A stretch of 64,000 nt of DNA from Deltaproteobacteria bacterium (GTDB lineage Bacteria > Myxococcota_A > UBA9160 > JAJDAL01): NCBI GenBank assembly GCA_029261875.1, contig JAJDAL010000006.1:56765-120764 (forward strand), in the 5' to 3' direction. Numbering within the stretch: position 1 is the first letter of the stretch; the number at the start of each line of letters is the position of its first letter. Under the pieces are notes generated by a model, which worked only from the letters and a program-made list of their open reading frames with translations, was not told where the DNA came from and made no database searches. Below are positions 12,392 to 32,825 of this stretch, piece after piece. A program made the translations under genes and the position numbers.

Positions 12392-12510
12392 CGGCCACGC
12401 TTCGAGGTGCCTGAACGGATCGCGTTTCTCGACCAGATTCCCTATACCCGCTCGGCAAGGTGAATCGCAAACCGCTGGCGGGAATCATCGTCCGAGATGT
12501 CGACCCCTGA
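12392..12510 (+). pseudogene. Frameshifted remnant of an AMP-forming acyl-CoA synthetase C-terminus
   Basis: RPRFEVPERIAFLDQIPYTR then, after a -1 base shift, GKVNRKPLAGIIVRDVDP*; one inserted G restores TRSGKVNRKPL, an AMP-binding_C-like lysine motif. Confidence 0.6.
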
Positions 12511-13522
12511 TATCGAGTATCCGATCCGAGTCGCGCAAGTCATCCGAGAGACCGAAGACGCCAGCTCCTTCGTGCTCGAGATCCCCACGGAGCTCGCGGA
12601 GGCCTTCCGCTATCGGGCCGGGCAGTTTCTCACCTTTCGGGTTCCCTTCGGCGAGACGACGCTGACGCGGTCCTATTCGCTTTCGAGTTCTCCGGAATGC
12701 GACGATCACCACAAAGTCACGGTCAAGCGCATCACCGATGGCCGCATTTCCCACTGGTTCAACGACCGGGTCTCCGAGGGAGACGTGCTTCGGGTTCGAG
12801 CACCGGCCGGGCTCTTTTGCCTGCGCGAATCCGATCGGGAGATCGTGCTCTTCAGCGGAGGGAGCGGGATCACGCCCGTCATCTCGATCGTCAAGACCGC
12901 CCTGGCCACGACCGCACGCAAGCTCACTCTCGTATATGCGAACCGCGACGCGAACTCGATCATTTTCCGCGAGGAACTCGAGGCCCTGGAACGCGCGCAT
13001 CCCGAGCGGCTGCAGCTCCTGCACCGACTCGACGCGGATCACGGGTTCGCGCGGGACGACGACATCCGGGAATATGCCGCGGGACACGAAGCTGCGGACT
13101 TCTACATCTGCGGTCCGGACGTTTTCATGGACACCGTGGAACGCACCCTCGAAGCCATGGGTGTGGAGCGTGAGCGGATCTTCATCGAACGCTTCGTTTC
13201 GCCGCCGGACCCAGGGGAATCGGAATCCGCGAACAGCGCTGGTGTCGCGGCTTCGATCTCCGTGCTCTTCAACGGCAAGACCCACGAGCTGCAGGTCGAG
13301 GCGGGGAAAACGATTCTCGAGACGGCGAAGGACGCGGGCATCGACCCGCCGTTCTCGTGCGAGGAAGGGTATTGCTCGTCCTGCATGGCGAAGCTGCTCG
13401 AGGGCAGCGCCGAGATGCGCCAGAACGAATGCCTCACTCAACGCGATGTGGACGAAGGCTGGATTCTCGCCTGCCAGGCGTTGCCCACCACGCCGCGCTG
13501 CCGAATCAGCTGGGACGATTGA
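12497..13522 (+). CDS. Ferredoxin-NAD(P)H reductase with C-terminal 2Fe-2S domain (KshB/PaaE type)
   Basis: YRAGQFLTFRVP...TRSYSLSSSP; GGSGITPVISIVKTAL; C-terminal CEEGYCSSC...C 2Fe-2S motif. Confidence 0.88.
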   Translation: MSTPDIEYPIRVAQVIRETEDASSFVLEIPTELAEAFRYRAGQFLTFRVPFGETTLTRSYSLSSSPECDDHHKVTVKRITDGRISHWFNDRVSEGDVLRVRAPAGLFCLRESDREIVLFSGGSGITPVISIVKTALATTARKLTLVYANRDANSIIFREELEALERAHPERLQLLHRLDADHGFARDDDIREYAAGHEAADFYICGPDVFMDTVERTLEAMGVERERIFIERFVSPPDPGESESANSAGVAASISVLFNGKTHELQVEAGKTILETAKDAGIDPPFSCEEGYCSSCMAKLLEGSAEMRQNECLTQRDVDEGWILACQALPTTPRCRISWDD

Positions 13523-13546: not shown

Positions 13547-16500
13547 TCAGGCGACCAGGTCGCCCATCTTCCGCAGCGTCTTCACCGTGTCCGGCGGGAG
13601 CACCGGCGGTTCTTTTCCGACCGCGTAGCAGCCGAGGATCACCTCGCAGGTGCGTTCGATGATCTCCACCATGTCCGCCGCGCGGCGCAGGCTTCTCCCC
13701 GCCACCAGCAACCCGTGGTTCTGCATCAGAACCGCCCAGCCATCGCCAATGGCTTCCGCCAAGGCGTCCGCCAGTTCTTGCGTGCCGGGCATGATGAAGG
13801 GCACGCGCGGGATGTCGGAGAAGAAGGCGGCCTCGGTCGAGATGGGGAGAAAGGGAAGTTCCGAGTTCGCGAGGATCGTGGCGTGGGGCGCGTGGGCGTG
13901 AATGACCGCGTTGGCTTCTGACTTCGCGGCCAGTACGGCGGTGTGCATCAGTCGCTCACTCGATGGCGACCGCGCGCCTTCGTCCAGGGCTTTGCCCGCC
14001 ATGTTCATGCGCACCAGAATCTCGGGCGCGAGATCGCCCTTGAAGAGCTGACTCGGTGTGATCCACACCTCATCGCGCGCATCGGGATCGCGCACGCTCA
14101 CGTTCCCGCCCGTGGCAGTGATGAGCTGTTGGGCAAACAGCTCGTTCACGATCTGAACCAGCTCCTCCCGCACATCGCCGGGCTTTACGGCTTTGGTCGC
14201 GGCCGCCGCCTTCGAGTCCGCGGTTCCGCCGAGGTTCGAGAGATCTCCCGGGTCCCCCACTTCTTCGCGGGCTTCGCGATAGAGGCGGCTCAGGTCGGCG
14301 TTGATCTCCTGCAACGTCATCGCCTTCGCGGTGTCGCCGCTGAAAGCCAGGTCCCCCTCCATCGCGGCGTTCATGGCGTTGACACGCCCGGTGAACATTC
14401 CGTCGAGGACATCGGCCTTCATCTTGAGTTCGACTTCGGCGTCCACGTCCGGCGCCGAGACCGCGGCCGTGGTCTCGCCGCGCAAACGCAGATAGAACTC
14501 GAGACCGAGATCGTTGAGCGTGAAGTGAAGGGTCACGTCCTTGTCGTCGGAAAAACGCTGCATCCCCGGGTCCGCAACGACGCGCTCGAGGAAGTTCGTG
14601 AGGATCTCCCGCATCTTGTTCTGAATGGGTTCTAGATCTACGGCACTCACGCTCGGTTCCTCCGCCGGTTGTCCGGGAGTCGCGTCGACCGCCTTCGCGG
14701 CGGTGTCCGGGTTTTTCTTTTTTGGCTTTTCGTTCTTCTGTAGATCCGTCACCGACGCACCGGGACCCGACAGGATCTCCTGCCAACGCGCGGGGTCGGG
14801 TACACGCCGCGGTCCGGTCCAAGAGAATTCGGACAACACCTCGGGGTTGCGCGCACGCAAGGGGCGGCCACCGCGCAGTAGCAAACCCAGATCTTCGGCG
14901 ATGATCTGACCCTGGTGCGCCGACACCTCGTGCGTATTGCCGCCCACGTGGGGCGTGGCAATCACGTTCGGAAGCTGGATTAGCGGATCGTCCGAAGCCG
15001 GGGGCTCCACTTCGAAAACATCGAGCGCCGCCCCACCCAGGTGGCCGGATTCCAAGGCCGCGCGCAACGCCGCCTCGTCGATCAACGCCGCGCGTGCGGT
15101 ATTGATCACGAAAGCGCCCGCTTTCATCTGTGCGAATTCGCCTTCCCCCAGGAGTCCGCGCGATTCGTCGGTCACCGCGGCGTGGAGGCTCACGAAGTCG
15201 CTTTGCGCCAGAAGGGATTCGAGCGGTGCGGGTTCGGCGCCGGCCAAGCGCACGGCATCGTCGGAGAGGAAGGGATCGTACACGACGACGCGGGTCCCAA
15301 AGGGCTTCACGCGCGCGACGACTTTTCGCCCGACGGCGCCCAGACCGATCATCCCCACGGTCTTCTGCCAAAGCTCGCGGCCGCGAAGTTTCTGGAACGC
15401 CCGCCCCATGCGTCCCATGTCGCCGGCTTCGCCCCCGGGCTCCAACAGGAACCGCCCGGCCTCCGGAAGCTTGCGCGCCAGACTCAACATGAAGGCCAGC
15501 GCGATGTCCGCCACCGCGTCCGCATTGCGACCGGGTGCATTCAAGACCGGAATCCCCAATTCCGTACACGCCGGGATATCGACGTTCACCGCGTCGCCGC
15601 GACACGACGCCACCACGCGCAGCTCCGGGAGTTCGCGCAGCGACTTGGCGTCGACGACGTCGACTTCGGTGATGAAGACCTGATAGCCCTCGAGTGCCTC
15701 GACCAAGCCCGGTCCCGTGAGCAGGCGCATGACGTTTCGAAAGCTCGCGTACTCGACGTCGCCCAGCGCCTCCAGGGCTTCGAGCGCTGCCTCGTCGAGG
15801 TCCGCGGTCACGAGAATGCGCGGCCGAACCTGCGCGCTTGCCAGCGAGGAGGGGCCGGCCTCTGCCAGGGCGACCTTCAAACTGACCTCGCGCGCGATGG
15901 CATCGGCCTCGCTGCGCGCGGCCAACACCCGGCGCCAATCTCCGAAACACGCGTCGTAGGCATCCGCGCGCTCCCGGTCCGGTTGGAATTCCTCGAGATC
16001 CGACGCGAACGCGCGACTCCCCGCCGCCATGTCGTCGAACAACCCGGCCCCGACCCCCGCACAGATCGCAGCCCCCAGCGCGCTCGCGTGGGTGGTGGCG
16101 GCGACCCGCACGGGCTTGCGGATCACGTCCGAAAGGATTTGCAAGAAAACCGGGCTACGCGTCATCCCCCCCGCGGCCCGCAACACCGCCGCGTCGCAAC
16201 CCGCGACTTCGGCGATCTGCTCCAGGTTGGCCCGCACCGCGTACGCCATCCCCTCTAGGGTGGCGCGCGCCAGATGCGCGCGGCGCTCCTCGCTCTTCGA
16301 CAGTGCCGAGGGATTCCAGGTCAAACTCGACAGCGGAAACTGCATGGAGCGCGCGTTCATGATGTCGGCACCGACCGTCGAGAGTGCCCCCATGGCGCCC
16401 ACCGGCGAGCGGCCGGCCTCCGCGGAAAGGTGAATCAGCGGGTGGTCGAGATCGGGATACAGGGCTTCGCCCACCCATTGGAGAGCGTCCCCCATGGAAC

Positions 16501-17404
16501 CGGCGTTGCTCTCGACCACCCAACGGCCCGGTACCAGATGATGCCCTGACCAGGTGCGCGCTTGCGCGTCGACGACGGGTCGGTCGACCACGAGCTGAAT
16601 CGGCGCCGTGGTGCCGATGACCGCACCGACTTCACCGGGTTCGACCACCGCTGCACCTAACAGCCCGCACTGGGTATCGCCGCCGCCCACGCTGACGTGG
16701 ATTCCCGGAGAGAGTCCCAACCAGGCTGCGGCGTCCTTCGACAAAGCCCCCAATCGCGTTCCCGCATCGACGACCGCGGGAAACAGGGAACGCGGCAGCG
16801 CAAGCGCTTCGATCAGCGAATCCGACCACGCGCGCTGCTCGAGTTCGAAGAGCAATGTGCCGCACGCGGTGGTGGGCTCCGCCACCCGTTCACCGCACAG
16901 GCGGTAAGCCAACCACTCGCTCAACCCCAACAGGGTTTCGACGCGCGCGAAACGTTCGGCGTCTTCCGCGGCGAGCATTTGCATCAAGGGCGCGGCGCAG
17001 ACGGGACTGGGCCAGATCCCGGTCTTGCGATGAATCTCCTCGCCGCGTTGGGCGCCCATGATCAAACCCTGGGCGACCGGTCGGGCATCGTGGGTCGGCG
17101 TTGCGATTACGACTTCACCGTCGCGATCGAGCAGCGCCGCACCGTGGCGTTGCGCGGAGGTCGAGATCGCAACCACCTGCTCCGGCGATCCGCCGCTGCG
17201 CGCCAAGGCCTCACGCGAAACTTCGGCCAGGGCCCGCAGCACGTCGTCGACGGCCAGATCGAAGCCCAGGCCGCCGGTGCCCGACACCGTCGGGTGGGAC
17301 CACGCGCGAAAGGCGGAGACGATGGCGCCGGTTTCCGGGTTCGCCACGACGCAGCGCCCGCCGCTACCACCGATGTCGAGACCCATGAGGAGCGGGGAGG
17401 TCAT
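13547..17404 (-). CDS. Four-domain fusion: FGGY carbohydrate kinase / D-2-hydroxyacid dehydrogenase / SCP2 / class II aldolase
   Basis: Single 1285-aa ORF. Kinase GLDIGGSGGRCVV and GGGDTQCGLLG; dehydrogenase GMIGLGAVGRKVV, NTARAALID, DVFEVEPP, TPHVGG; SCP2-like ~aa 922-1050; aldolase HAHAPHAT, MQNHG, PSSERLMH. Confidence 0.9.
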   Translation of the reverse strand: MTSPLLMGLDIGGSGGRCVVANPETGAIVSAFRAWSHPTVSGTGGLGFDLAVDDVLRALAEVSREALARSGGSPEQVVAISTSAQRHGAALLDRDGEVVIATPTHDARPVAQGLIMGAQRGEEIHRKTGIWPSPVCAAPLMQMLAAEDAERFARVETLLGLSEWLAYRLCGERVAEPTTACGTLLFELEQRAWSDSLIEALALPRSLFPAVVDAGTRLGALSKDAAAWLGLSPGIHVSVGGGDTQCGLLGAAVVEPGEVGAVIGTTAPIQLVVDRPVVDAQARTWSGHHLVPGRWVVESNAGSMGDALQWVGEALYPDLDHPLIHLSAEAGRSPVGAMGALSTVGADIMNARSMQFPLSSLTWNPSALSKSEERRAHLARATLEGMAYAVRANLEQIAEVAGCDAAVLRAAGGMTRSPVFLQILSDVIRKPVRVAATTHASALGAAICAGVGAGLFDDMAAGSRAFASDLEEFQPDRERADAYDACFGDWRRVLAARSEADAIAREVSLKVALAEAGPSSLASAQVRPRILVTADLDEAALEALEALGDVEYASFRNVMRLLTGPGLVEALEGYQVFITEVDVVDAKSLRELPELRVVASCRGDAVNVDIPACTELGIPVLNAPGRNADAVADIALAFMLSLARKLPEAGRFLLEPGGEAGDMGRMGRAFQKLRGRELWQKTVGMIGLGAVGRKVVARVKPFGTRVVVYDPFLSDDAVRLAGAEPAPLESLLAQSDFVSLHAAVTDESRGLLGEGEFAQMKAGAFVINTARAALIDEAALRAALESGHLGGAALDVFEVEPPASDDPLIQLPNVIATPHVGGNTHEVSAHQGQIIAEDLGLLLRGGRPLRARNPEVLSEFSWTGPRRVPDPARWQEILSGPGASVTDLQKNEKPKKKNPDTAAKAVDATPGQPAEEPSVSAVDLEPIQNKMREILTNFLERVVADPGMQRFSDDKDVTLHFTLNDLGLEFYLRLRGETTAAVSAPDVDAEVELKMKADVLDGMFTGRVNAMNAAMEGDLAFSGDTAKAMTLQEINADLSRLYREAREEVGDPGDLSNLGGTADSKAAAATKAVKPGDVREELVQIVNELFAQQLITATGGNVSVRDPDARDEVWITPSQLFKGDLAPEILVRMNMAGKALDEGARSPSSERLMHTAVLAAKSEANAVIHAHAPHATILANSELPFLPISTEAAFFSDIPRVPFIMPGTQELADALAEAIGDGWAVLMQNHGLLVAGRSLRRAADMVEIIERTCEVILGCYAVGKEPPVLPPDTVKTLRKMGDLVA

Positions 17405-17430
17405 GGCGGCAAGTGTAGTCGATCGAAGCC

Positions 17431-18588
17431 CTAGGGCTTCTCGCTACCGACGATCCACATGGCGAAGAATTGAGAGCCGCCCCCGTAGGCGTGCCCGAGT
17501 GCTTTGCGCGCACCCTCCACTTGATGTTCGCCCGCTTGCCCGCGCACCTGCATGGCGGCTTCCGCGAAACGCAACATGCCCGACGCGCCAATGGGATTCG
17601 AGGACAGAACCCCGCCCGAGCAATTGACCGGCAAGTCCCCATCGAGCGCCGTGGCGCCCTCATAGGTCATCTCCCAACCGAGCCCCTCTTCCGCGAACCC
17701 GAGGTTCTCCATCCACATGGGTTCGAACCAGGAAAAGGGCACGTAGATCTCCGCGGCATCGATCTCTTTGCGCGGGTTGGTGATGCCCGCCTTCTTGTAG
17801 AGCTCGGCCGCGCAATCCTTCCCCGCTTGGGGGTTCACCTGGTCGCGTCCCGAAAACATGGTGGGCTCGCTCTTCATGGCCGTCGACCACACCCAGGCCG
17901 GCCGCGTCGGTGCGCTCTCGGCGGCTTTCTCGCTCGACAGCACCATCGCGCAAGCCCCGTCCGAGGACGGACAGGTTTCGAGATAGCGGATGGGATCCCA
18001 CAGCATCGGCGAGTTGGCGACTTGATCGAAATCGACGCCGGGAATCTTCAGGTGCGCGTAGGGGTTCTTGAGCGCATTGAGGCGATCCTTCAGCGCAACG
18101 CGAATCCCCGTGTCTTCCGGTGCCTTCGATCGCGCCATGTAGGCGCGAATCAGCGGCGCGAAATATCCACCGGCCCCGGCGACGATCGCTTGTTGGAACG
18201 GAATCTTGATCGTGAGTGCCCACATGGCGTTGCTCTCGGATTGCTTTTCATAAGCCACCGTCAGCACGCGGTCGTGAATCCCCGCTTGGATCAAGCTCGC
18301 CGCCACAACCGCCGTGGAGCCCCCAACACTCCCCGCCGTATGCACGCGCAAGATGGGTTTCCCCGCCGCACCCAGCGCGTCCCCCATGGCGATCTCGGGC
18401 ATCATCACGCCTTCGAACATGTCGGGCGCTTTGCCGATCACGACCGCATCGATGTCACTCCAGGTCAGTTGAGCGTCTTCCAGGGCACGCGTGGCCGCCT
18501 CCCGCAGCAGACCGGGCGCCGACACATCGGTGCGTTTGGCATCGTGTTGGGTCTGACCGATTCCGACGACGCCGCATAGCTCGGCCAT
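17431..18588 (-). CDS. Thiolase family protein (lipid-transfer/Ltp-like)
   Basis: 385 aa; RVHTAGSVGGSTAVVAASLIQAG; C-terminal GGVLSSNPIGASGMLRFAEAAMQVRGQAG. Confidence 0.85.
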   Translation of the reverse strand: MAELCGVVGIGQTQHDAKRTDVSAPGLLREAATRALEDAQLTWSDIDAVVIGKAPDMFEGVMMPEIAMGDALGAAGKPILRVHTAGSVGGSTAVVAASLIQAGIHDRVLTVAYEKQSESNAMWALTIKIPFQQAIVAGAGGYFAPLIRAYMARSKAPEDTGIRVALKDRLNALKNPYAHLKIPGVDFDQVANSPMLWDPIRYLETCPSSDGACAMVLSSEKAAESAPTRPAWVWSTAMKSEPTMFSGRDQVNPQAGKDCAAELYKKAGITNPRKEIDAAEIYVPFSWFEPMWMENLGFAEEGLGWEMTYEGATALDGDLPVNCSGGVLSSNPIGASGMLRFAEAAMQVRGQAGEHQVEGARKALGHAYGGGSQFFAMWIVGSEKP

Positions 18589-19644
18589 CTACTTTGCCTC
18601 CAGGACGCACACGAGATTCTGTTGCAGGCACGGACCGGACGTCGCGTGGGCCAAGCCGCGACCAATGGATCCCCACTGGATTCGGTTGGCGACTTCCGCG
18701 ATGCGGGTCAGCCCCGCCACCATGATGGCGTTGGCGGCGAGCGCACCGCCCGAGGGATTGATCGAGGTACTGGCGTCCAGCCCGAGGGCGTCGCGCAAGA
18801 TCAATTCCTGGTGGGTGAAGGGCGCGTACAGTTCCGCGACCTCGATGCCCCCGGAAGCGACACCCGCCTTTGCGCCCGCCAAAGCGGTCGAGGGCGATTC
18901 GGAAAGATCGCGCACGCCCGGTTGGTGGGGCTCGATCCGGTGATCGATGCCCGTGATCCAAGCCGGCCGTTCGCAAGCGTTTCGCGCCGTATCGTCCGCG
19001 GCCAACACGACCGCCACCGCGCCGTCACTGATCGGCGCACAATCGTGTACGCGCAAGGGCGATACCAGATACGGTTCCGCCAAGAGTTTCTCCAGATCGA
19101 AATCGCCCGCGAGCTGCGCGTTGGGATTGTCCTTTGCACTCTTGCGACTGCGCACAGCGACTTTCGCCAGGTCGCGCTCGGTGTACTGGGTCTTCTCCAA
19201 GAACGCGCGCGCTTGGAGCGCGGCGAGGCTGATGGAATCGATACCCAGAGGAGACAGGTAATAGGGATCGAGCTGGAGATTCAATACGTCGGGAACATCG
19301 CCCATGGAGGACTTCCCGAAGGAGTACACCAGGGCCGAATCCGCCTGACCCGTCTGGATCTTGACCCAGGCTTCGTAGAGCGCCCAGGCACCGTCCATCT
19401 CCACGTGGGATTCGGAAATCGGCGGCCAAGCGCCGATTGCATCCAAAGCGCTCACAAAGGCGAAAGGCTGCCCGGCAAGATAATCGCAACTTCCGGAACA
19501 AGTGAAGCCGATGTCTCCCTTGGGAATGCCCGAGCGCTTCACCGCTTCCTGGACCACCGGCATCAACATTTCGACTTCGTTGCGGCGTTGTTCGCGCCGT
19601 ACGTTCGTCATCTGTGCAGTCGAAACAATGGCGACGTCGCGCAT
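18589..19644 (-). CDS. Thiolase family protein
   Basis: MRDVAIVSTAQMTNVRREQ start at 19644; INPSGGALAANAIMVAGLTRIAEV. Confidence 0.85.
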   Translation of the reverse strand: MRDVAIVSTAQMTNVRREQRRNEVEMLMPVVQEAVKRSGIPKGDIGFTCSGSCDYLAGQPFAFVSALDAIGAWPPISESHVEMDGAWALYEAWVKIQTGQADSALVYSFGKSSMGDVPDVLNLQLDPYYLSPLGIDSISLAALQARAFLEKTQYTERDLAKVAVRSRKSAKDNPNAQLAGDFDLEKLLAEPYLVSPLRVHDCAPISDGAVAVVLAADDTARNACERPAWITGIDHRIEPHQPGVRDLSESPSTALAGAKAGVASGGIEVAELYAPFTHQELILRDALGLDASTSINPSGGALAANAIMVAGLTRIAEVANRIQWGSIGRGLAHATSGPCLQQNLVCVLEAK

Positions 19645-20144
19645 CACAGGTGTTCCTTGTAGGACTCGAAAGGCGCGTCCGGTTCGTCGATGGGTCGAAA
19701 GTATCGGATGGACTCGAAGGTGGGACCCAGGTCCTCCGCGTCGACCCAGACGGCTTCGACCCGCATTCCCATGCGCACTTCGTCGAAGTGACACTCTTGG
19801 ATCAAGGCGAAGAACGGAATGTCGGCACCGTCCAACAAGATGTGTGCGGCCACGAAAGGCGGATCGATGTCCAGGCTGTCGGAGGGAATGCGGACGACGC
19901 AAAAGGTCGTGATGGTTCCCGTGCCGGGCACCTGGACTTCCAGGTCCGTCGCCACCCCGCAGCGCGCACAGGAGCCGCGGGGCGGGACGTAGACTTTCTC
20001 GCACTGGGGACAGCGCTGGCCCAGGATCTTGCCGTCCGCCATGCCTCTCAGGAAACGCGTCGACGCGACCCCGGCCGTGTACTGGTACTCGAGTCGCAGG
20101 GGCGTCGTTATCGATTGGACGAGTTCGCTTTCGGCTTCGCTCAC
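19644..20144 (-). CDS. DUF35 OB-fold/zinc-ribbon protein (ChsH2-like)
   Basis: Zn ribbon CPQCEKVYVPPRGSCARCG followed by OB-fold; GTG start overlapping upstream stop. Confidence 0.85.
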   Translation of the reverse strand: MSEAESELVQSITTPLRLEYQYTAGVASTRFLRGMADGKILGQRCPQCEKVYVPPRGSCARCGVATDLEVQVPGTGTITTFCVVRIPSDSLDIDPPFVAAHILLDGADIPFFALIQECHFDEVRMGMRVEAVWVDAEDLGPTFESIRYFRPIDEPDAPFESYKEHL

Positions 20145-20596
20145 GAGGTGCCCTCCGGTTCGAAGCAGGCCACGTCGTTGATGGACCCCACGGTTTGCGC
20201 GCGCCAACGCGGGGTGACCCGCATGCCGGTCTGCATGGCGGATTCGACCCCGGTATCGACGGCGTGGAGCATGGCGGTGTCGGCGCCGTCGAGTTGAATC
20301 AGCGCCCAGGCAAAGGGGTGATTCAGCGGATGTTTGGCGCGGGGATGGCTCACCCAGGCCCAGGTCGTGACCACGCCGCCGGGCCCGACGGGCACCATTT
20401 CGTCGGCCGCCTCGCCGGTCTGCGGGTCGTATTCGGTCGGCGGCACGAGCACGCGGCCCCGGGCGGTCTTCACCCCCTCGAAACGGCGATCTCGCAGGGC
20501 CGCGAAGAAGCGGCCCATGACCGGTCCGGTGCTGCGCCGATACGGGTATTCCACGATATGGGAGGCGGAGAGGAGCCCTCCGTCACCTGAAGCCAT
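20141..20596 (-). CDS. OB-fold (DUF35-like) protein lacking a zinc ribbon
   Basis: GGVVTTWAWVSHPRAKHPLNHPFAWALIQLDGADTAMLHAVD. Confidence 0.75.
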   Translation of the reverse strand: MASGDGGLLSASHIVEYPYRRSTGPVMGRFFAALRDRRFEGVKTARGRVLVPPTEYDPQTGEAADEMVPVGPGGVVTTWAWVSHPRAKHPLNHPFAWALIQLDGADTAMLHAVDTGVESAMQTGMRVTPRWRAQTVGSINDVACFEPEGTS

Positions 20597-21686: not shown

Positions 21687-23702
21687 TCAGAGGGAAGAGC
21701 GGAACGGGACCAAGGGCCGGTTGTCCCCACCGCGGAGGCGAATCACCCCCCCCACGCGCACGATTTCATCGGCGAGGGGCACCAGCCAGGGCGACTGGGT
21801 GTTTCGGAAGGACCAGGAATAGGCGGACCCGGCGATCGAGACGACTTCCTCCACCTCGGCCACGATGTCGACCTGCCAGCCGGCTTCCGTGCGGCGAAGC
21901 AGGTGGGGTGCGATGAACGGGCTGCTGCTGCACAACGCGATCGCCCGGTCGCCGCGTTGATGGATCTCGATGTCCTCGACGGATTCCAGCTCGAAGAGGT
22001 ACGCGAGGTAGCCGGGGGTCATGGGGAAATTCGCGAGAAAGGCCTGGCTCTCTCGCGTGAAGAGCTCGACGTTCGGTTCGTAGCGGGGGGATGAAAGCCA
22101 GCGAACGAATTCATCGTAGGCTTCGCGGGCGGTTCCCCCGGCGGAGAATCGCATGGGCTCGCCATGGGTGCCCCAGCGATCGCCATCGGAATAGCGGCTC
22201 CGCACCGCGCCTCTGGCGCCCGCTCCGCCGGATGCGTAGCGGGTCGCGTGCCGCGCATCGGTCGGTCGCGTTTCGAACTGGTCGATCATCTGCGCGTAGC
22301 GAAGGCGGTCTTCCAGCATGCGAATTGCGAGGCCCAAGGCCGTGGCGGGATCGCTGGATTCGAACAGATAGCCCGCATGTTCTTCGATCAAGCGCCCCAA
22401 CAACGCGTCGGACAGGATCGCTTCGAGTCCGTAACTCACTTCGATGCGCAGTTCCTCCGCACGCGGGTCATAGAGAAAAAGAATCCCTCTTCCCCGCGGA
22501 GAACGGGAACCTACGTCGAGTTGCTCGAAACGCGCGGTCGCGAACGCGTCGAGCGGAGTTGCGTCGGGCGGCGACTCGATCCGGAAGCGCGCATCCACGC
22601 CGGATTCGCGGTAGAAGAGCGCGAGGCGTTCGGACAGGCTTTCGCGCTGTTCCATTTGGAGCGGCGCACCGGCGTCGTGGACGCGGACGATGGGCCGCTG
22701 CGCGGGTTCTTTCCAACCGGAGACGGGGAGGAAGAGCGCGAACGCGGCGAGGACGGCAACGACCGGTCGCAGACCCCGGTAGCGTGAAGGCATCGGCGAA
22801 GCGATACAGCGCGACTCCGCCAGGGCCTCCAGCCTCGAGGCGACTTCCGTAGCGCAGCTCGGTCGATCCCGGGGATCCTTGGACAAGAGCGGCTCGACGA
22901 GCTTGCGAACCCGGGGCGCCAGTCGATCCAAGCCATCGGGTTCGTCGAAGAGAACGCGTTTGAAATGATCGTCGAGGGCGTTCGCCGCGAAGGGTTCTAC
23001 CCCCGTCAGCATGCGGACCAGCATCGCGCCCAGGGAAAAGAGGTCCGCGGTTTCGGAGACCTTTGCGCCCAGCACTTGCTCCGGCGCCAGATAATTGGGG
23101 CTTCCGACGATTGCCCCTGGAGACGTCAGGATCGTGTGTTCGTTTCTGAATTTGCACAATCCAAAGTCGGCGATCTTCGCACCGCCGGTGTCGGGGAGAA
23201 TGACGTTGGACGGCTTCAGATCGCGATGGATACGACCGGCCGCGTGGACGGCGCCGAGACCCCGCGCAATCTGCGCGGCGATGCGAAGCCCGACGGCGGG
23301 ATCGAGGGTTCCGCACTGCTGAAGCTTCTTGTCGAGGGAGATTCCCGGAACCCACTCCATGACGTAGTAGGCCTCCGGGCCGCCTTCGCAATCCGCGAGA
23401 CCGGCATCGAAGGTCGCCACCACGTTTTCGTGGAAGAGCCCGCTCGTCGCCCGCATCTCGCGCAGAAAGCGCGCGGCAAACTCGGCGTGTTCGGACGCGT
23501 CCGCGAAGGGATCCAGTTGAATGACTTTGAGTGCGACCTTGCGTTCGAGCACGGGGTCGAAGGCGCCATACACGACCCCCATCCCGCCGCGACCGAGTTC
23601 GCCCTGCACGCGATAACGTCCGAATTCGCGCTTCGAAGCGAGGAATCGCCGCGTCGCGTTCCGACAGACCGCGGAGAGTCGGGCGCTACTGGAGGAGCTC
23701 AC
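21687..23702 (-). CDS. Hanks-type Ser/Thr kinase fused through a TM segment to a TPM-like domain
   Basis: GRGGMGVVYGAF, IHRDLKPSN, ADFGLCKF, YLAPEQ; TM ~aa 312-329; TPM-like GRGILFLYDPRAEELRIEVSYGLEAILSDALLGRLIEEH. Confidence 0.85.
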   Translation of the reverse strand: MSSSSSARLSAVCRNATRRFLASKREFGRYRVQGELGRGGMGVVYGAFDPVLERKVALKVIQLDPFADASEHAEFAARFLREMRATSGLFHENVVATFDAGLADCEGGPEAYYVMEWVPGISLDKKLQQCGTLDPAVGLRIAAQIARGLGAVHAAGRIHRDLKPSNVILPDTGGAKIADFGLCKFRNEHTILTSPGAIVGSPNYLAPEQVLGAKVSETADLFSLGAMLVRMLTGVEPFAANALDDHFKRVLFDEPDGLDRLAPRVRKLVEPLLSKDPRDRPSCATEVASRLEALAESRCIASPMPSRYRGLRPVVAVLAAFALFLPVSGWKEPAQRPIVRVHDAGAPLQMEQRESLSERLALFYRESGVDARFRIESPPDATPLDAFATARFEQLDVGSRSPRGRGILFLYDPRAEELRIEVSYGLEAILSDALLGRLIEEHAGYLFESSDPATALGLAIRMLEDRLRYAQMIDQFETRPTDARHATRYASGGAGARGAVRSRYSDGDRWGTHGEPMRFSAGGTAREAYDEFVRWLSSPRYEPNVELFTRESQAFLANFPMTPGYLAYLFELESVEDIEIHQRGDRAIALCSSSPFIAPHLLRRTEAGWQVDIVAEVEEVVSIAGSAYSWSFRNTQSPWLVPLADEIVRVGGVIRLRGGDNRPLVPFRSSL

Positions 23703-28359: not shown

Positions 28360-28389
28360 TGATTGACTCGAAAATCAACACTGGCTCTT

Positions 28390-28405
28390 ATTCAGCACAC
28401 TGAAT
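28390..28405. promoter_or_regulatory. Perfect inverted repeat ATTCAG-CACA-CTGAAT upstream of thiolase
   Basis: 6-bp arms in 5' region of the 28426 gene. Confidence 0.35.
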
Positions 28406-28425
28406 CGACTGAAAGGAGACCCTCC

Positions 28426-29622
28426 ATGGGCAAGAAAGTATTCGTCGTCGGCGTCGGCATGACGAAGTTCGAAAAACCGGGTTCCAAAGAATGGGATTAC
28501 CCCGACATGGCGAAGGAAGCCGGGACCCGCGCGCTCGAAGACTCGGGCGTTCCCTACGACTCCATCGATCAGGTGGCCGTGGGCTATTGCTACGGCGATT
28601 CCACCTGTGGACAACGCGCCGCCTACGAGCTCGGTCTCTCGGGTGTGCCGGTCTACAACGTGAACAACAACTGTGCCACTGGCTCCACCGCACTCTTCAT
28701 GGCCAAGCAGTTCGTCGAAGGCGGACTGGCGGATTGCGCCATGGCGCTGGGCTTCGAGAAGATGGAAAAGGGTTCTTTGGGGATCAAGTATACGGATCGC
28801 ACCAACCCCATGGACAAGCACTTCAAGCTGATGGTGGACCTGCGCGGTTTCGCCAAGGCGCCGGCGGCTCCGCAGATGTTCGGCAATGCAGGGCGCGAGC
28901 ACATGGAGAAATACGGCACCACGGCGGAACAGTTCGCCAAGATCGGCTGGAAGAACCACAAGCACTCGGTCAACAATCCGTATTCGCAATTTCAGGATGA
29001 ATACTCCCTCGAAGACATCCTGAATGCGCCCATGGTTTACGACCCCCTCACGAAGCTGCAGTGCTGCCCCACGTCCGACGGCGCGGGCGCGGCCATTCTC
29101 TGCAACGAAGAGTTCGTGAAGAAGCACAACCTGCAGGCCAAGGCCGTGGAAATCATCGGGATGTCCATGGCGACCGACATGCCGAGCACGTTCGACGAAA
29201 AGAGCTGCATCAAGATGGTGGGCCAGGATCTGACCCGGAAGGCCGCCCAGGAAGTCTACGAGCAATCGGGGCTCGGACCGGAGAATGTCGACGTCGTAGA
29301 ACTACACGACTGTTTCTCCGCCAACGAGATGGTCACCTACGAAGGGTTGGGGCTGTGCCCGGAAGGCAAGGCGGGCCAGTTCGTGGACGAGGGCGCGCAG
29401 ACCTACGGCGGCCAGGTCGTGGTGAACCCGTCCGGTGGGCTGATCTCGAAGGGGCATCCCCTGGGAGCCACGGGTTTGGCGCAATGCGCGGAACTCAATT
29501 GGCAGATCCGCGGCGAAGCCGACAAACGCCAGGTCGAAGACGCCAAGGTGGCCTTGCAGCACAATCTCGGTCTGGGCGGCGCAGCGGTCGTCGCCATGTA
29601 CCGCAAGGCGGACATCGCCTAA
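28426..29622 (+). CDS. Thiolase / SCPx-like lipid-transfer protein
   Basis: [51 protein letters not shown]. Confidence 0.92.
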
Positions 29623-30143
29623 TCGGCCCCCTCCGAGAGGAGGGTTTCGTAGGACGACGGAATCAGCTCGCTCGCGTCGACACCGAGTTCACGCATCAGG
29701 TGTTCGACGCGGGCGAGTTGCGCCGGTTCCCCCGCCTTCTTCCCGTCGAACACCGCTTCGAGTTCCATGAAGTCGCCGAGACCATCCACCCGGTCGAGAT
29801 GAATCCGTACGTTGTCGACCCGGAAGATTTCGCGCTGCTTGCGCACGACGCAGTGCACGCCCAATAGTTCCGTCAGCAGTTCCCGCAGGCCTTCCGGGTC
29901 GTCGATCGCGATGACCTGGTAATCCGCGCGGCGCGGTCCCGCTTGGTTGGGTCTCCGGTAGGGAATGAGTTGCCCGCCCGAAAGACTCGAAATACGCAGC
30001 TTCAAGCGGCCCTGCTGGGTTCGAAAGTAAACATCGGTCTGCTGATCGATTCCGACGTACTGCGTCGCCAAGGCCTCGGCTCGTGCGCGAAGCGCTGCAA
30101 GGTCCCGGCAACGCGCTTTGATCTCGAGATTCGCTGTTCCCAT
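29619..30143 (-). CDS. CYTH domain protein (class IV adenylate cyclase-like)
   Basis: [52 protein letters not shown]. Confidence 0.88.
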
Positions 30144-30243
30144 GGGAATAGGATATACCGGGACCTGCGCCCGCGGAGGATGCTTGCCCGCCACCCCCAG
30201 CGATGACCACTCCGGGGAGGATTCCCGTCTAACCCCCCTGCGC

Positions 30244-31572
30244 ATGAGCGGCTACGCGGTCGGCGACTTCACGGTCAACACCGTCCTCGTCGCGCTTTCC
30301 ATGATCTACACCCTGAAGTTCCTGCCCGAGCACGGTGACATGCGCCCGGCCCTGGCGGGATTGATTCCGTTGATCGGCCGCGTCGTCGACGCTCTCACGG
30401 ATCCCTTCATGGGACGCATTTCGGATCTGACGCGCTGGAAGGCGGGGCGACGTCGCCCGTATTTCCTGATCGGCGCGATCCCCCTGGGCGTCAGCTTCGC
30501 GATGATGTGGGCGCAACCGGGCTTGGAGGCGCAGAGCGCGCGCTTCGCCTACTACACCTTTACCTACGTGCTGATGAGTCTCGCGCTGACGGTGGTGTCG
30601 GTCCCCTACCTGGCCCTGCTTCCCGAAATGGCCGTGGGCTACGACGCGCGCACATCGCTCCATACCTATCGCAACATCGGGTCCGTGATCGGCATCTTCG
30701 CCGCCGTCGCGTTGATCGATGTCGCCAAGGCGTTTGGCGATGGTGCCCAGGGCTTCGCCATGGCGGGCCTGCTCTACGGCGGCATCGTCTCCATTCCCTG
30801 GATTCTCGTCTACTACTCGAGTTGGGAAAATCCGAGCTTCCAATCCACCCAGCCGACGCTCGGCTTCCGCGACGGGTTGCGCGCCCTGTCGAACAACCGT
30901 GCCTTCGTGCGGGTGACGGGCATGTATCTGTTCGGCCGCATGGCGATGGACCTGGTGGGCGCCATGCTGATCGTTTTCCTCGAGCGCTGGATCCGACGCC
31001 CGGAAGACTTTACGAACGTCATGTTCCTGTTTTTCGCGACCGTCATCGCCGCGCTGCCCTTTTGGCTCAAGCAATCGCAGAAGAGCGACAAGGCGCCGGT
31101 TTTCGTGATCGGCTGTGTCTGGTGGGCCTTTACCGTGTCGTTGTTCCTGGGCCTTCAACCCGAGTGGCCGCCTTGGATCCTCTACGTTTGCGTCCCGATT
31201 TCCGCCATCGGGTTCGCGGTCGTCGATCTGATTCCCTGGTCGATGCTGGGCGAAGTCATCGACCAGGACGAACTCGAATCCGGTGAACGCCGGGAGGGCC
31301 TCTACAACGGCGTCTTCATGTTCGTGCGAAAACTCGCCGGCGCCGGGGTGGTCTCCTTGGCGGGCCTTGTCCTCGATCTCTCCGGTTACGACCCCCACCT
31401 CCCCACGCAATCCGAGACCACGCTCTGGTCGATTCGACTGATGACCTCCGTCGGCCCGGCGGCCTTGATCCTCGCCTCGATCTTGTTCGCCCGGAACTAC
31501 CCCATCACGCGGACGGTCCACCAGACCACGCTCGCCGCCCTGACCCGCCGTCGGCAAGAAGACGCTTCGTGA
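30244..31572 (+). CDS. MFS transporter, GPH cation symporter type
   Basis: RVVDALTDPFMGRISDLTRWKAGRRRPYFLIGAIPLG. Confidence 0.88.
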   Translation: MSGYAVGDFTVNTVLVALSMIYTLKFLPEHGDMRPALAGLIPLIGRVVDALTDPFMGRISDLTRWKAGRRRPYFLIGAIPLGVSFAMMWAQPGLEAQSARFAYYTFTYVLMSLALTVVSVPYLALLPEMAVGYDARTSLHTYRNIGSVIGIFAAVALIDVAKAFGDGAQGFAMAGLLYGGIVSIPWILVYYSSWENPSFQSTQPTLGFRDGLRALSNNRAFVRVTGMYLFGRMAMDLVGAMLIVFLERWIRRPEDFTNVMFLFFATVIAALPFWLKQSQKSDKAPVFVIGCVWWAFTVSLFLGLQPEWPPWILYVCVPISAIGFAVVDLIPWSMLGEVIDQDELESGERREGLYNGVFMFVRKLAGAGVVSLAGLVLDLSGYDPHLPTQSETTLWSIRLMTSVGPAALILASILFARNYPITRTVHQTTLAALTRRRQEDAS

Positions 31573-32825
31573 GCGATCCCGCCCCCGCGCGAATTTCGCC
31601 AAGCCGGTTCTACGGCTGGAAAATCGTTGCCGTCGCGTTTCTCGCCGACTTCATCGGTGTCGGCTTCTTCTTCTATTCCTACGGTGTGTTCTTCAAAGCG
31701 TTGGCGGCGGACCTCGACGGTTCCCGGCTCGGCGTCTCCATCGGGCTCGCGCTGGTCAATTTGATGGGTGCGTTGACGGCGCCCTTCATCGGTCGGGCGA
31801 TCGATCGCTACCCCGTGCGCAACATCATGGTGGCCGGAGCGGTGGCGACGGCTGCGGGCTTCGCGTTGTCTTCCCAGGTCGGGTCCCTGTGGCACTACTA
31901 CGTCATCCTGGGAACGCTGACCGCCGTCGGAACTTCCTGCATGGGCAACATTTCTTCGGCCAAGTTGGTCACCAATTGGTTCATCGCCCGGCGCGGGCGC
32001 GCCATGGGGATCGCGACCATCGGCATTTCCCTGTCCGGTGTCGCCATGCCACTGATTGCAACCTGGCTCATCGCCCATTCGGGATGGCGCACCGCGTTTC
32101 TCATCTACGCCGTGGGGACGCTCGTGATCGTGATTCCGCCGGTCCTGCGCTTCGTCCACAACCGGCCCGAAGATCTGGGCCTGTTGCCCGACGGCGATTC
32201 GCCGCCCGAACCCGGCTTTCCCGCCCGCGCCGAGGAACGCACCTGGAGCAGCGGCGAAATCTTCCGCAACGCCAATTTCTGGGCGATTTCCTTCGCGTTC
32301 TCTCTCGTCATCGCATCCATGTCGGCGATCCTCACCCACCTGGTCCCCTACGCGACAGATCTCGGGATTGCGCCCTATCGCGCGGCGTCGGTGCTCTCCC
32401 TCGGCGCGTTGCTGGGAGCCGTCGGGAAGATCTTCTTCGGCTGGCTCTTCGATCGCATGAGTCCACGAATTGCGGTCTGGGTCTGTTTCGGCACGCAACT
32501 CATGGCGGTCCAGTTGCTCATCACGGCGCACTCCTACCCGACGCTGCTCGCAGCCGCGTTGCTGTTCGGCTTCGGCATGGGGGGCATCATCCCCCTGAGT
32601 GGAAGCTTGATCGGTATGGTGTTCGGACGGCTGTCCTACGGGAAAGTGATGGGCCTCATGCGGCCGGTACAAGTACCCATCATCTTCGTGGGCGCGCCCC
32701 TGGCGGGCTGGATCTACGACGATTCAGGAAGTTACGAGTTGGCGTTTCAGATTTTCGCCGTCGCCTACGTACTCGCCATCTTCGGTACCGGGGCGATTCG
32801 AATCCAACGCACGGCGCCGGCCTAG
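31569..32825 (+). CDS. MFS transporter (monocarboxylate / oxalate-formate antiporter-like)
   Basis: 12-TM pattern; NWFIARRGRAMGIATIGISLSGVAMP. Confidence 0.88.
   Translation: MSDPAPARISPSRFYGWKIVAVAFLADFIGVGFFFYSYGVFFKALAADLDGSRLGVSIGLALVNLMGALTAPFIGRAIDRYPVRNIMVAGAVATAAGFALSSQVGSLWHYYVILGTLTAVGTSCMGNISSAKLVTNWFIARRGRAMGIATIGISLSGVAMPLIATWLIAHSGWRTAFLIYAVGTLVIVIPPVLRFVHNRPEDLGLLPDGDSPPEPGFPARAEERTWSSGEIFRNANFWAISFAFSLVIASMSAILTHLVPYATDLGIAPYRAASVLSLGALLGAVGKIFFGWLFDRMSPRIAVWVCFGTQLMAVQLLITAHSYPTLLAAALLFGFGMGGIIPLSGSLIGMVFGRLSYGKVMGLMRPVQVPIIFVGAPLAGWIYDDSGSYELAFQIFAVAYVLAIFGTGAIRIQRTAPA

Follow-up and report, generated by a model that had tools for sequence, protein, structure and literature searches.

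What reaction, and on which substrate, is carried out by a single polypeptide that joins an FGGY kinase, a D-2-hydroxyacid dehydrogenase, an SCP2 domain, and a class II aldolase domain? Such a protein is encoded in a 64,000-nucleotide stretch of a Deltaproteobacteria bacterium genome (the whole stretch analyzed, hereafter the window), and an original prediction interpreted it as a pathway in one chain, with a substrate that may be lipid-linked or SCP2-delivered. We find it to be a real, conserved, and uncharacterized multifunctional enzyme; all four of its parts come from known domain families, and it is not a new kind of system. The fusion, its domains, and the adjoining genes are as follows.

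12497 to 13522, plus strand: PaaE-like protein of the ferredoxin-NAD(P) reductase type, its gene converging on the fusion
13547 to 17404, minus strand: fusion open reading frame, kinase-dehydrogenase-SCP2-aldolase, 1285 aa, stop codon included
13550 to 14179, minus strand: class II aldolase/adducin domain (residues 1076-1285), with the highest conservation of any part (66-78% identity)
14255 to 14632, minus strand: SCP2 domain, residues about 925-1050 (Pfam and AlphaFold)
14825 to 15829, minus strand: D-isomer-specific 2-hydroxyacid dehydrogenase domain, residues 526-860 (Pfam)
15890 to 17404, minus strand: FGGY kinase domain (residues 1-505), with LsrK as its nearest solved structure
17431 to 18588, minus strand: same-strand gene 26 bp upstream of the fusion, encoding a thiolase-like protein (above the cut-off of NCBIfam PRK08313)
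18589 to 19644, minus strand: Ltp lipid-transfer thiolase (PRK07937, above cut-off); the reading frame is open to 20004, and homology begins near 19644
20141 to 20596, minus strand: DUF35/ChsH2 OB-fold protein (Pfam), a partner-type subunit of Ltp aldolases

One open reading frame encodes four domains

The segment from 13547 to 17404 is a single open frame of 1285 codons plus a stop when read on the minus strand, and the plus-strand reading contains stops; the original prediction gave no strand. All four domains score above their Pfam cut-offs, in the order FGGY kinase, D-2-hydroxyacid dehydrogenase, SCP2, and class II aldolase. GC content by codon position is equal in all four domains and broadly so in the linkers, and this uniformity gives no sign of a frameshift or chimera. 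The claim of an uninterrupted four-domain frame is thus confirmed by the open frame, the Pfam matches, and the same domain order in independent assemblies, with no stop and no sign of a frameshift between the domains. AlphaFold models residues 1-880 as two folded N-terminal domains (pLDDT 87.0), confidence being low chiefly in the 515-523 linker and in two short loops, and it confirms the SCP2 fold.

The gap that separates the stop of the thiolase gene from the start of the fusion (window 17404-17431) contains a perfect 16-bp palindrome, GAAGCCCTAGGGCTTC, which is possibly an operator or a weak hairpin.

Domain families and active sites

The predicted catalytic signatures proved intact, as the catalytic residues of the kinase, dehydrogenase, and aldolase are invariant in the alignments. 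In the kinase, FGGY_N (residues 6-250; 4e-35) and FGGY_C (261-452; 9e-21) both exceed their cut-offs, and D10, R86, D106, R108, and D243 are invariant in the aligned relatives; both Pfam domains, together with D10 and D243, place it among the FGGY carbohydrate kinases. Its best-scoring characterized and solved relative is the autoinducer-2 kinase LsrK (PDB 5ya0), with which it shares the FGGY fold and the GGGDxQ signature, and the suggestion of an LsrK-like kinase holds to the extent that LsrK is the closest of the solved structures. Unlike LsrK, however, it is joined to three other domains and lacks an lsr operon, and at ~31% identity it scores 232 bits against the LsrK equivalog cut-off of 528 (NF008187). 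We therefore reject an AI-2 kinase identity, and the proposal of AI-2 or sugar acids as substrates gains no support from so distant a match.

The dehydrogenase matches 2-Hacid_dh (530-850) and its NAD-binding domain (636-821; 4e-53), both over cut-off, and R602, R771, E800, and H819 are invariant in the aligned relatives, the last three supporting membership of the D-2-hydroxyacid dehydrogenases. It has the Rossmann domain and Arg/Glu/His catalytic triad of phosphoglycerate dehydrogenase (PGDH) and glyoxylate reductase but falls under every equivalog cut-off, and its RG[GD]xVN[VI]D...PGRN motif is common to 2-hydroxyacid dehydrogenases that adjoin FGGY kinases.

The third part belongs to the SCP2 superfamily by both profile and fold: PF02036 matches residues 958-1034 (4e-11; 43.5 bits, cut-off 21.3), the AF2 model is confident (pLDDT 89.8), and Foldseek matches it to SCP2 proteins, UbiJ, and the SCP2 domain of alkylsulfatases. 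Sixteen columns are invariant among relatives. A precedent comes from bacterial alkylsulfatases, whose SCP2 domain is joined to a catalytic domain for amphiphilic substrates (PMC5426288). Both these enzymes (SdsA1/Pisa1) and peroxisomal MFE-2 combine an SCP2 fold with catalytic domains for lipids or amphiphiles, although there the partner is a metallo-beta-lactamase or a hydratase/dehydrogenase, and neither a kinase nor an aldolase. By analogy, the SCP2 domain of the fusion may hold the hydrophobic part of the substrate.

The fourth domain (Aldolase_II, 1080-1256; 2e-45) is a member of the class II aldolase/adducin family, with invariant zinc ligands H1169, H1171, and H1230 and catalytic E1150. 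It has the fold of L-fuculose-1-phosphate aldolase (FucA), together with its catalytic Glu and the three His that bind zinc, but differs at the position of FucA Tyr113', which we take to act as an acid/base and where a Glu (E1191) is aligned, invariant in 17 aligned relatives; it also falls under the cut-offs of the named aldolases listed. The family takes in aldolases, epimerases, a dehydratase, and a decarboxylase, and with Glu replacing Tyr113', dehydration, epimerization, and decarboxylation are possible activities of the domain. The name aldolase is thus a fold assignment, and aldol cleavage is only predicted. A standalone protein 72% identical to this domain is encoded next to an enoyl-CoA hydratase gene (L065, 9259-10113, minus strand; L017), and no close match to the kinase was found in its genome.

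Distribution and variant architectures

Translated searches recovered the complete fusion at 50-57% full-length identity in many Myxococcota metagenome-assembled genomes (MAGs) of the same order and class, and one further genome elsewhere in Myxococcota carries it; within a broad sample of that phylum, a close kinase match is present in 33 of 379 genomes. The fusion also occurs in 5 of 199 Mycobacterium genomes, including cultured isolates of the M. kansasii complex, with M. ostraviense, M. innocens, M. attenuatum, and M. persicum among the species. The same fusion is present in more than 15 independent assemblies, and the four-domain order and linkers are conserved over two phyla. On a midpoint-rooted tree, the four mycobacterial copies included cluster as a single clade (100/100) amid Myxococcota sequences, a placement suggestive of interphylum transfer, and the fusion has probably passed between Myxococcota and mycobacteria; the deep Myxococcota branches lack resolution, so a donor of the mycobacterial copies cannot be named.

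Partial and unfused forms exist. One family carries a three-domain form without the aldolase (L059, L060, and L062), which looks like a derived loss within that family; kinase and dehydrogenase occur as a two-domain form in L061 and L102, and in L098 the aldolase, dehydrogenase, and kinase are separate genes. Paracoccus, Shinella, Sagittula, and G087 have operons in which genes for these three enzyme families lie side by side, in the same order in G087, but the genes are unfused, and G087 has no SCP2 match. A Haladaptatus plasmid (L114; a haloarchaeon) has a class II fructose-bisphosphate aldolase gene followed by an FGGY kinase and a 2-hydroxyacid dehydrogenase, a triad with another aldolase fold.

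The literature searched yielded no paper describing or characterizing the four-domain architecture, and a review of the FGGY family has no mention of the fusion, LsrK, or hydroxyacid. The architecture is conserved, and we found no characterization of it that would make it a familiar enzyme.

Genomic context in the window and in relatives

In the window, the only steroid-type genes adjoining the fusion are DUF35, Ltp, and thiolase, directly upstream and co-directional. The reductase on its other side had been called KshB-like; it is convergent and not co-directional, and we reject the KshB identity, the nearest family being PaaE, whose own cut-off the protein does not reach. At greater distance, the plus strand carries genes for two acyl-CoA dehydrogenases and one acyl-CoA synthetase, and the minus strand one for a third acyl-CoA dehydrogenase. 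The window also contains a further Ltp gene followed by GPH-type and MFS transporters (28363-32825, plus strand; PRK08256, above cut-off), and a Ser/Thr protein kinase fused to a TPM_phosphatase domain (21687-23702, minus strand); protein kinases are also near the fusion in L050 and L012.

Neighbors in relatives were placed by homology, and several gene strings recur. In L056 the string is DUF35, Ltp, P450, fusion, a KshA-like Rieske oxygenase, and a CasG-like acyl-CoA synthetase; L103/L015 has the same string from the P450 onward, and in both the P450, fusion, KshA-like, and CasG-like genes abut or overlap by a few bases. Shorter strings are DUF35-Ltp-P450-fusion-CasG-like (L058), P450-fusion-CasG-like (L051), and fusion-CasG-like (L052, L064, L066, and G023). 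Overall, a P450 gene lies directly upstream of the fusion in seven genomes, and DUF35-Ltp lies upstream in L056, L058, L059, and L062, as in the window, where the Ltp subfamilies are different. A CasG-like gene adjoins the fusion downstream in eight genomes of five families, and since this gene is usually single-copy, such adjacency is far beyond chance (binomial about 1e-14 even when only families are counted). In the family that includes the three-domain forms, a dihydroorotate-dehydrogenase-like gene directly follows the fusion (L057, L059, L060, and L062).

Across 91 genomes, with relatedness ignored, presence of the fusion is associated with KshA_C (31/34 versus 35/57; p 0.003) and with a CasG-like gene (30/34 versus 34/57; p 0.004). 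The genes flanking the fusions included no identified sugar transporter; the recurrent neighbors are P450, Ltp, KshA-like, and CasG-like genes. At the four mycobacterial loci examined, a divergent ALDH-like gene is directly downstream, and P450 and CasG neighbors are absent.

Ltp/DUF35 pairs are sterol side-chain aldol lyases (PMC10398937), and CasG, a steroid-24-oyl-CoA synthetase, activates the bile-acid side chain (PMC12882949). The CasG-like proteins of the relatives score 647-706 bits with the CasG model NF052580, nearly twice the next family but under the equivalog cut-off of 750. PDB relatives of the P450s are uninformative as to substrate, with macrolide, steroid, and other P450s scoring alike. 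Homologues of steroid side-chain genes (CasG, Ltp/DUF35, and KshA) flank the fusion in relatives, but no steroid pathway is known to use an FGGY kinase, a 2-hydroxyacid dehydrogenase, or a class II aldolase, and searches for papers found none either.

Proposed function and alternatives

The occurrence of P450, Ltp/DUF35, KshA-like, and CasG-like genes in one string with the fusion strengthens the link to lipids or steroids. We tentatively favor, at somewhat less than even chances, a conserved multifunctional enzyme of an uncharacterized branch of steroid or polycyclic-lipid catabolism, in which SCP2 would hold the substrate through kinase, dehydrogenase, and aldolase steps. The prediction of a lipid-linked or SCP2-delivered substrate thereby gains from a genuine SCP2 fold and from a steroid and lipid context stronger than its author knew; the substrate class itself, a steroid or similar lipid, is what we infer. 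In such a scheme, the SCP2 domain would hold the hydrophobic part of the substrate, the LsrK-type kinase would phosphorylate a hydroxyl group at its polar end, and the dehydrogenase would oxidize a neighboring hydroxyl. The aldolase domain would then release a small phosphorylated piece, and the shortened lipid could next be activated with CoA and have its side chain cleaved by Ltp/DUF35, through the products of the neighboring genes. A more specific version, doubtful as it stands, is phosphorylation-dependent shortening of polyhydroxylated steroid or lipid side chains, such as those of bile alcohols and polyhydroxysterols, with the internal lipid carrier passing the substrate between active sites; we know of no steroid or lipid side-chain pathway with phosphorylation-dependent kinase, dehydrogenase, and aldolase steps.

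Several observations weigh against a steroid or lipid substrate. The CasG-like proteins are under the equivalog cut-off, the CasG-like and KshA-like genes of the source genome are not beside the fusion but elsewhere (C49 and C5), with no P450 adjoining the fusion, the mycobacterial loci are likewise without P450 and CasG neighbors, and 2-hydroxyacid dehydrogenases normally use 2-hydroxy acids, not plain hydroxyl groups. As for a pathway in one polypeptide, the three intact catalytic domains stand, and it is their sequential action on one substrate that is conjectural; forms lacking the aldolase exist elsewhere, so the aldolase step need not sit in the same chain, and three-step chemistry in one chain is not obligatory.

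A somewhat unlikely alternative is that the three activities work on a water-soluble C5-C6 sugar acid or polyol, with SCP2 serving only in oligomerization or membrane docking. Sugar derivatives are the usual substrates of all three enzyme families, separate kinase, dehydrogenase, and aldolase genes accompany sugar ABC transporters on the Paracoccus, Shinella, and Sagittula plasmids, and the two-domain forms do without SCP2. The kinase of those alphaproteobacterial operons is, however, from an FGGY clade farther removed (about 60-95 bits, versus 183 for LsrK), the fusions have P450, Ltp, KshA-like, and CasG-like genes where those operons adjoin transporters, and the 16 invariant columns argue against SCP2 as a mere accessory.

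The domains might instead be bundled for coexpression in the same pathway while catalyzing different reactions, with the kinase and dehydrogenase, for example, making or recycling a small phosphorylated cofactor and the aldolase fold performing an unrelated dehydration or decarboxylation. We judge this unlikely: the two- and three-domain forms, the standalone aldolase relative (L065), the several chemistries hosted by the aldolase fold, and the Glu at the Tyr113' position all fit it, but two phyla share the four-domain order and the linkers, and the three-domain form looks like a derived loss in one family. Breakdown of hopanoid polyol side chains (bacteriohopanetetrol) is very improbable; the four domains would all fit a lipid bearing a sugar-like tail, but the fusion is not associated with HpnH in the same 91 genomes (8/34 versus 16/57; p 0.81; relatedness ignored), and the source genome has no HpnH above cut-off, results that would still leave room for uptake of foreign hopanoids. 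An assembly chimera or read-through of adjacent genes, conceivable in that many relatives are MAGs, is rejected as virtually impossible by the Mycobacterium isolate genomes, the independent assemblies, and the uniform codon composition.

Implications

The fusion is of interest for its conservation across two phyla and for a context suggesting an undescribed reaction. On the plainer interpretation it is still a conserved multifunctional enzyme, and one for which current annotation predicts no substrate. If the steroid or lipid function suggested by the operons is correct, SCP2 would be the substrate-holding arm of a four-part enzyme, offering a testable path to a new catabolic reaction, and environmental Myxococcota would share with a few mycobacteria from the M. 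kansasii group, some of whose members are opportunistic pathogens, an unrecognized lipid breakdown that employs the chemistry of sugar metabolism.
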